In this document: piece after piece, positions 47,738 through 49,242 of the stretch
How positions within the stretch are numbered: position 1 is the first letter of the stretch
Layout: each line of letters begins with the position of its first letter
Assembly (NCBI GenBank): GCA_001628005.1
Contig: LUQU01000004.1
Span: 1-64,000, forward strand
Reading direction: 5' to 3'
Length of the DNA: 64,000 bases
Source: SAR86 cluster bacterium REDSEA-S09_B4
Lineage (GTDB): Bacteria; Pseudomonadota; Gammaproteobacteria; Magnimaribacterales; Magnimaribacteraceae
Notes under the pieces: generated by a model
Databases searched by the model: none
Told to the model about the DNA's origin: nothing
The model's input: only the letters and a program-made list of their open reading frames with translations
Position numbers and translations under genes: made by a program

Positions 47738-47811
47738 ATATTTGAAAGTTTAAGTCTTTTATGCTAAGTCCTTATTTGTTTATTTAATTACTTTACTGTT
47801 AAATACCGGAG

Positions 47812-47830
47812 TCCGGGTTCTGCCTGGACG
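47812..47830 (+). promoter_or_regulatory. Stable hairpin in 5' region of the small membrane protein gene
   Basis: GTCCGGG-TTCTG-CCTGGAC, 7-bp stem with one G:U. Confidence 0.5.
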
Positions 47831-47858
47831 TTTGTTTAGCTAAATTAATGGGTGAAAT

Positions 47859-48077
47859 ATGAATGCACTTAATATGGTAAAAGATCTAATAGGTCAATTA
47901 ACTGGCATCATAGTATCTCTAATCGCACTTGGAGTTGCTGCTGGAGTAGTATTCGGCGGTGGTCTTCCTTTTGTAGGTGGAGTTCTTGATGGCCTTCTTG
48001 GACTAGTTAACACTCTTGGTGATAACGGTCTAGTAGGTTTAATCGTACTAGCGGTTTTACTTGACCTTTATAGATAA
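47859..48077 (+). CDS. Small hydrophobic membrane protein A (72 aa), unknown function
   Basis: RBS-like GGGTG upstream; two hydrophobic segments; paralogous to the next ORF; own terminator. Confidence 0.75.
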   Translation: MNALNMVKDLIGQLTGIIVSLIALGVAAGVVFGGGLPFVGGVLDGLLGLVNTLGDNGLVGLIVLAVLLDLYR

Positions 48078-48099
48078 GTTTTTACTTAGCTATTGCATA

Positions 48100-48135
48100 G
48101 AAAGGGGGCCTCTAAAGGTACCCCTTTCTTTTTTT
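48100..48135 (+). terminator. Intrinsic terminator after small protein A
   Basis: GAAAGGGG...CCCCTTTC followed by TTTTTTT. Confidence 0.85.
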
Positions 48136-48155
48136 AGGGTTACTTAGGGGGTGAT

Positions 48156-48383
48156 ATGGATCTTGTAGAAAGAATAAAACGTTGGTTGTGGGAAGCAACT
48201 AAGCTTTTAGCTTTGATAGTAGCTGTTTCAGTATTGGTTTCTGTTCTGTTTGGACCTTCAGCACCATTTTTTGGTAATGTTATGACAAACTTGGGACCGG
48301 TTATTGATACACTGGGATCTGAAGGATTGGCTGTCATCATAGCTCTAATAATAATTTTAGGGATTTGGAACGGCAGATCATAA
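48156..48383 (+). CDS. Small hydrophobic membrane protein B (75 aa), paralog of A
   Basis: Shared FG-x3-PF-x-G-x-V...TLG-x2-GL pattern; preceded by TTAGGGGGTGAT. Confidence 0.75.
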   Translation: MDLVERIKRWLWEATKLLALIVAVSVLVSVLFGPSAPFFGNVMTNLGPVIDTLGSEGLAVIIALIIILGIWNGRS

Positions 48384-48394
48384 AAAAGGATTAA

Positions 48395-48430
48395 AATAAA
48401 AAAGGCATCTTTAAGGTGCCTTTTTTATTT
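48395..48430 (+). terminator. Intrinsic terminator after small protein B
   Basis: AAATAAAAAAGGCA-TCTTTAAGG-TGCCTTTTTTATTT. Confidence 0.85.
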
Positions 48431-48441
48431 GGGAAAAAAAT

Positions 48442-49242
48442 ATGAAGATACAAGAAGGAAGGGTCTCGATTGAAGAGGCAGTTGAAATAGGAACAGGGGG
48501 TCAAAAAGTCTTATTTGCAGATATATTCTTACCTCCTAAAGAAGAGCTTAATAGACCTGCAATTTTGTTTGTTCACGGAGGAGGGTGGATAGAAGGTGAT
48601 AGATCTCAACTTAGAGGGTATGGCATTTTATTAGCTAGATTGGGATTCGTAACCATGTGTAATTCTTATAGATTATCTAATGAAGCACATTGGCCAGCTC
48701 AAATCCAAGATGTTAAGTGTGCTATTAGGTATCTAAGAGCTAATGCACAGAAGTTAGGCATTGACCCTGAGAGAATTGGTGTATCGGGTAATTCAGCTGG
48801 TGGTCATTTATCTTTAATGGCTGCTGCGACTTCATATGATGATAGCTTTGAGGGTGATGGGGGTAACAACGATGTATCATCAAAAGTAAAAGCTACTTGT
48901 GCTATTTATCCTCCCACCACAATTCGTCAGTTGGACCTTGATCCTCTTGAAAATGCTTATGCCATGCTCATGGGTTCAGAAGCTAACGAAGAGGATTATA
49001 AGAAAGCAAGCCCTATGAATTACGTATCCCAAGATTTTCCACCTTGTATGTTGGTTCATGGGTCCACGGATAGTGTTGTCCCTTTAAAAGAAAGTACAGG
49101 CTTCTACGATAAACTGAAAGAAAAAAATATACCTGCTTCTCTGCATGTCTATTCGGAAGAAGATCATGCCTTTGATGGTGAAAGTGAGAAGGGAAGGAGT
49201 GTGGCAGACTTACAGGCCTTATTCTTTAAAAAATACCTTTAA
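48442..49242 (+). CDS. Alpha/beta hydrolase (esterase/lipase, HSL-like)
   Basis: HGGGW oxyanion motif, GVSGNSAGGHLS nucleophile elbow, EEDHAFD. Confidence 0.88.
   Translation: MKIQEGRVSIEEAVEIGTGGQKVLFADIFLPPKEELNRPAILFVHGGGWIEGDRSQLRGYGILLARLGFVTMCNSYRLSNEAHWPAQIQDVKCAIRYLRANAQKLGIDPERIGVSGNSAGGHLSLMAAATSYDDSFEGDGGNNDVSSKVKATCAIYPPTTIRQLDLDPLENAYAMLMGSEANEEDYKKASPMNYVSQDFPPCMLVHGSTDSVVPLKESTGFYDKLKEKNIPASLHVYSEEDHAFDGESEKGRSVADLQALFFKKYL

Follow-up and report, generated by a model that had tools for sequence, protein, structure and literature searches.

A tandem pair of small membrane protein genes in marine Gammaproteobacteria, with single-copy homologues in T4-like marine viruses

The window analyzed here, a stretch of 64,000 nucleotides from SAR86 cluster bacterium REDSEA-S09_B4, carries two small genes, A and B, in the order infB-rbfA-truB-rpsO-pnp-A-B-esterase-ychF. 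What kind of proteins they encode, whether they form one transcription unit or two, and what such a pair does in a marine bacterium are the questions raised by this locus. The two open reading frames of 72 and 75 amino acids given in a preliminary description of the sequence were both found:

47859 to 48077, plus strand: gene A, 72 amino acids, a small predicted N-in/C-in membrane hairpin and the putative abundant member of the pair.
48156 to 48383, plus strand: gene B, 75 amino acids, a predicted N-in/C-in membrane hairpin paralogous to A and the putative minor member, with a two-helix AlphaFold2 model.

BLASTP aligned A with B without gaps (17/57 identical, E = 2e-6), and when this register was carried to 66 residues 20 identities were counted, in agreement with the gapless hand alignment reported earlier (about 20 identities over about 66 residues). 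The whole genome holds only these two copies of the family, and the sole other match of A was B (E = 5.8e-8), so the likeness between them is not chance hydrophobicity. Both genes are under purifying selection; because dN/dS is far below 1 in each, A and B are genuine proteins. A BD-FAE-type alpha/beta hydrolase gene (48442-49242 of the window) lies 3' of B in the window's family of bacteria and not in other families.

No credible match to the A/B family was obtained in Pfam, NCBIfam, PHROGs or PADLOC, the best sequence match in the PDB had E = 0.49, Foldseek searches against the PDB and viral structures gave no match, and literature searches yielded no description of the family. The earlier statement that the family was not recognized thus still holds. 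By these comparisons the family is without known relative. A resemblance to a FliP helix spans 25 residues only and was treated as chance. A prophage or plasmid gene was also rejected, since the window neighbors are infB-rbfA-truB-rpsO-pnp on one side and esterase-ychF on the other, and no cultured phage or plasmid record matched the family. The two-peptide bacteriocin-like pair suggested in the preliminary description is unlikely, as A and B form a core pair amid housekeeping genes, lack a leader peptide, and have neither export nor immunity genes next to them.

Within the order of the window, the family was present in 85 of 101 genomes and in 36 of the 39 that are of high quality. Both members were found in 48 of 49 loci read, 9-82 nt apart, and the one exception is truncated by a contig end. 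The arrangement pnp-A-B-ychF is shared by two families of the order; part of a third also has the pair next to ychF, and in a fourth it is located elsewhere. The two outcomes named beforehand as tests of the original reading, a match to a known family and a lack of conservation, did not come true, the proteins being unmatched and conserved. One genus (G036, G063 and G096, including a single-contig genome that is 97% complete) has lost the pair, and because some near-complete genomes of this genus lack A and B, the pair is not universally essential. As seen in L032, L035, L037, L039, L046 and L051, two other families of the order have a tRNA-Met gene immediately after B, on the opposite strand. 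Some B members (L070:1776-2075, L071:1075-1359 and L115:4352-4636) have a hydrophilic insertion of 20-25 residues in the periplasmic loop.

Outside the order, only five of 369 sampled genomes from the class gave good matches, two of them single-copy, and a phylum-level genome sample gave no credible match. A collection scan returned 22 named loci, all 22 with the tandem pair, and each of the 17 searched genomes behind named loci outside the order had exactly two copies. Two tandem copies recur in this way in other marine Gammaproteobacteria and in Marinimicrobia (the phylum of G756), where 46 of 120 genomes matched, one of them with an extra fragment at a contig edge. The neighbors there vary (yajC-def-fmt, zapA/ygfA with ilvA, amidase with enolase, and others, the gene names being readings of translations). 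As A and B remain linked at many unrelated loci, the cassette moves as a unit. The preliminary description had offered a lineage-specific small-protein family; this was too narrow, since the pair spans the order and is also present in Marinimicrobia, and viruses carry homologues in single copy. The copies from Marinimicrobia and Desulfaltia look genuine. Those in single metagenome-assembled genomes of Gemmatimonadota, Burkholderiales and 'Deltaproteobacteria' either cluster among gammaproteobacterial sequences or match them, one A being identical, and may for this reason be binning errors. The proteins of G438, a genome labeled as of the same class, are identical to those of the Sulfuriflexus metagenome-assembled genome L094, in support of Gammaproteobacteria as that class.

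Reciprocal profiles gave consistent A/B assignments between the order and other lineages in 13 of 19 cases (p = 0.17), and the two types are not cleanly orthologous. The duplication may have occurred once or twice, since the tree of these 76-column sequences is compatible with either.

In the predicted layout of the proteins, a short amphipathic stretch at the N-terminus leads into the first membrane helix; then come a periplasmic loop, which includes an amphipathic helix, and a second helix that begins at a nearly invariant glycine (G57, 99%). The loop was free of lysine and arginine in 23 A proteins from the order and had a mean of 2.8 acidic residues, and basic residues lie at the ends. Because the loop lacks K/R and the ends are basic, both termini are predicted to be cytoplasmic; A and B would thus be N-in/C-in helical hairpins with a neutral-to-acidic loop in the periplasm. 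The packing motif of GxxxG type noted earlier in A is present as GxxxGxxxG at G25-G29-G33. AlphaFold2 gave two or three long helices with moderate confidence (pLDDT 71 and 78, pTM 0.4). A helical hairpin of 70-80 residues with a glycine-rich first helix resembles ATP synthase subunit c. This candidate was rejected: A and B have no conserved carboxylate in the second helix (no conserved D/E, with a mean of 0.0-0.3 acidic residues), the predicted topology is opposite, and no atp genes lie nearby. A single-copy family member at L055:1168-1719 (minus strand) is fused to a (KT)n, histone-H1-like Lys/Thr-rich tail of about 110 residues, a further argument for a cytoplasmic C-terminal end.

Whether A and B are transcribed together depends on the signals around them, which are as follows.

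47775 to 47804, plus strand: putative promoter-like element of A (TTTGTTT, 17 nt, TTAAAT, within TGTTAAAT), kept across the window's family and non-canonical relative to the sigma-70 consensus.
47811 to 47829, plus strand: leader hairpin (GTCCGGG...CCTGGAC), present in 18 of the 18 loci listed for the window's family.
47830 to 47858, plus strand: near-invariant TTTGTTTAGC and extended ribosome-binding site GGGTGAAAT, from the alignment of 17 loci of the window's family.
48100 to 48135, plus strand: hairpin (48100-48128) with a T-tract to 48135, between A and B, from sequence and folds.
48147 to 48155, plus strand: ribosome-binding site of B, GGGGGTGAT, from sequence.
48400 to 48426, plus strand: intrinsic terminator closing the A-B unit, from sequence and kept in the window's family.

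In the stem of the leader hairpin 96.7% of cells pair, two of the four pairs have changed on both sides, and pairing collapses on sliding. This hairpin may mark where the A mRNA starts, or else be the terminator of pnp. A strong terminator after each gene had been described, and a hairpin with a T-tract is indeed found 3' of both A and B; a simple terminator scan missed both hairpins, whereas sequence and folds reveal them. They fold better than shuffled sequence (median z of -2.6 after A and -3.1 after B in the window's family), as do hairpins at homologous positions across the order. The intercistronic hairpin was strong in all 18 tested loci from the other families of the order (median z -5.1), with its position kept and its sequence unrelated between families.

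These two hairpins, together with the conserved promoter-like leader of A, are what favors the earlier proposal of separately bounded units, in which A and B would be individually regulated and yield two independent small proteins. Against this, only about 20 nt separate the T-tract after A from the start codon of B, and the locus alignment shows no conserved promoter there, so B seems to have no promoter of its own downstream of the hairpin. Several lineages outside the order have A-B gaps of 33-47 nt without a hairpin, and the pairing has survived moves to many unrelated loci. We consider two independent units quite improbable, and the preliminary description was probably wrong on this point. 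From the short spacing and the hairpin-free gaps, A-B is better read as a single operon whose internal hairpin lowers B; on sequence evidence A appears to be expressed above B. In light-harvesting alpha/beta (pufBA) operons, an intercistronic hairpin sets the unequal expression of two small membrane proteins. A and B likewise are two small tandem membrane genes with a hairpin between them; unlike the pufBA products, they have two helices rather than one and no conserved histidine, and no pigment genes lie nearby.

The expression signals at the order level differ between the two genes. In codon tests based on the window and the loci, A had an excess of C-ending codons over neighboring genes (p = 7e-6 and 3e-15 in two locus sets), and the excess was weak or absent in B. 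In each of the 12 pairs compared, A had a lower dS than B, and no scorable flanking gene had a dS as low as that of A. Related sequences were pooled in the codon and dS tests and shared ancestry was ignored, which makes the p-values optimistic. Together, the codon excess and the low dS point to strong translational selection on A, although the low dS could alternatively be due to an RNA element inside the gene. Marinimicrobia and other lineages outside the order showed no A/B difference in codon bias. The earlier suggestion of abundant or individually regulated products is therefore retained in its first half, since A is probably abundant, and not in its second.

The family extends to viruses. 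First viral scans with B-type and LFPGTT-type profiles gave no match, whereas the A profile succeeded: profile A1 matched three viral contigs, and queries from those retrieved hundreds. All 203 marine viral loci examined carry one homologue each, scoring 47-76 bits against a cellular-only profile and 37-60 bits against a profile of the order's A proteins only, and the neighbors are unmistakable T4-like genes. In virus cluster 0 (120 loci) the gene stands between gp62, RegA and dUTPase on the upstream side and Hsp20 on the downstream side. In virus cluster 1 (82 loci), and likewise in five cluster 0 loci, it lies directly after the major capsid gene gp23, and cluster 1 proteins have the same charge pattern as the A proteins of the order. 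The viral copy of L147 comes after a gp32-like gene, named from a reading of its translation. T4 makes few proteins in larger amounts than gp23 and gp32, and a place behind these genes fits a protein needed in bulk. In 202 of 202 clustered loci the viral copy was closer to the order's A than to its B, and the same test with other lineages was mixed. Literature searches found no description of this viral link.

Class II holins have two transmembrane helices with both termini inside the cell (PMC9636201). The main rival to the membrane assembly proposed below is a holin-like module, in which the viral copy would be a class II holin and the chromosomal A/B a domesticated holin/antiholin pair tuning permeability or autolysis, similar in action to Cid/Lrg though unrelated to it in sequence. 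The likeness is to the phage 21 S pinholin type: about 70 amino acids, a basic C-terminal end and, as predicted for A and the viral proteins from hydrophobic segments and charges, two N-in/C-in helices. The viral members moreover belong to lytic myophages, and in 44 of the 62 cluster 0 loci long enough to show it, an M15 endolysin gene is found on the same strand, about 1.7 kb downstream. However, no holin family in Pfam, PHROGs or NCBIfam was matched, the nearest being a holin PHROG hit by one A member of the order at E = 0.12. No endolysin stands beside the bacterial A/B loci, and in most cluster 1 loci, where the gene follows gp23, none is adjacent (six have a SleB-like hydrolase 1.6 kb upstream). 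Genes placed after RegA/dUTPase or gp32 would be expected to be expressed ahead of lysis, and such codon bias in a tandem pair that is part of the core chromosome across the order is unexpected for a lethal pore former. We regard this role as unlikely.

T4 Imm is a small two-helix inner-membrane superinfection-exclusion protein of a T4-like phage. By this precedent the viral copy might block the DNA entry of rival phages and the bacterial pair might be a resident barrier; one of the viral positions, in the replication region beside regA, suits such a role. On the other hand, neither a superinfection-immunity profile of Imm type in Pfam nor PADLOC gave a match. The bacterial copies are a paralogue pair with order-wide vertical conservation, purifying selection and constant synteny, unlike mobile defense genes. 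Superinfection exclusion is thus very doubtful.

Considering all these results, we propose, tentatively and with a little less than even confidence, an inner-membrane assembly in which A is abundant and B is the lesser component; T4-like phages would provide the A-like subunit for themselves. A and B would be a bicistronic cassette for two paralogous inner-membrane hairpins with cytoplasmic ends and a periplasmic loop. A would be made in bulk, and the intercistronic hairpin would pass only part of the transcription, or of a processed message, into B, leaving B as the minor partner. Small residues, such as those of GxxxGxxxG in A, may let neighboring hairpins pack against one another in a mixed A/B assembly, a putative bulk component of the inner membrane with a structural or protective role. 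Marine T4-like phages would bring their own single copy beside gp23 and gp32 to sustain the supply of the A-like subunit during infection. Small paralogous subunits are common in membrane complexes, and the pair is core-like with an apparently abundant A, so A and B could instead be accessory parts of a larger membrane enzyme that is already known, such as a respiratory complex, transporter or translocase, and have been overlooked for their small size. Yet no enzyme is a constant neighbor (pnp/ychF, yajC-def-fmt, ygfA/ilvA, amidase/enolase and others), and phages bear the gene without such an enzyme adjoining, which makes this alternative decidedly unlikely.

The proposed A/B assembly would matter because the family, found in no protein library searched, is order-wide in small-genome marine Gammaproteobacteria, common in Marinimicrobia and present on over 200 contigs from uncultured marine viruses. 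A gene kept by both viruses and hosts usually marks a process important in infection, and an unrecognized membrane component may therefore matter to ocean bacteria and their viruses alike. The furthest-reaching version, which we think rather doubtful, is that this is a new inner-membrane assembly, a major one in several dominant ocean bacteria, and that marine T4-like phages have independently put the gene for one subunit after the genes with the greatest output, so that the host membrane is rebuilt or preserved during infection. A and B offer a small, expressible target for studying the role of unannotated abundant membrane proteins in ocean bacteria.

A marine T4-like phage bearing one subunit of a host membrane assembly would resemble phages with auxiliary genes from their hosts, such as psbA in cyanophages; here the host role of the A/B family is a proposed one, and the transfer may have run in either direction. 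Exchange between virus and bacterium has occurred, because the single-copy protein of the bacterium G422, probably SUP05-like, falls among the cluster 0 viral proteins, with identities to them of up to 61%. Among the viral contigs, L331:3371-4309 (plus strand) carries an open reading frame in which a dUTPase is joined to a translational repressor of the T4 RegA type.
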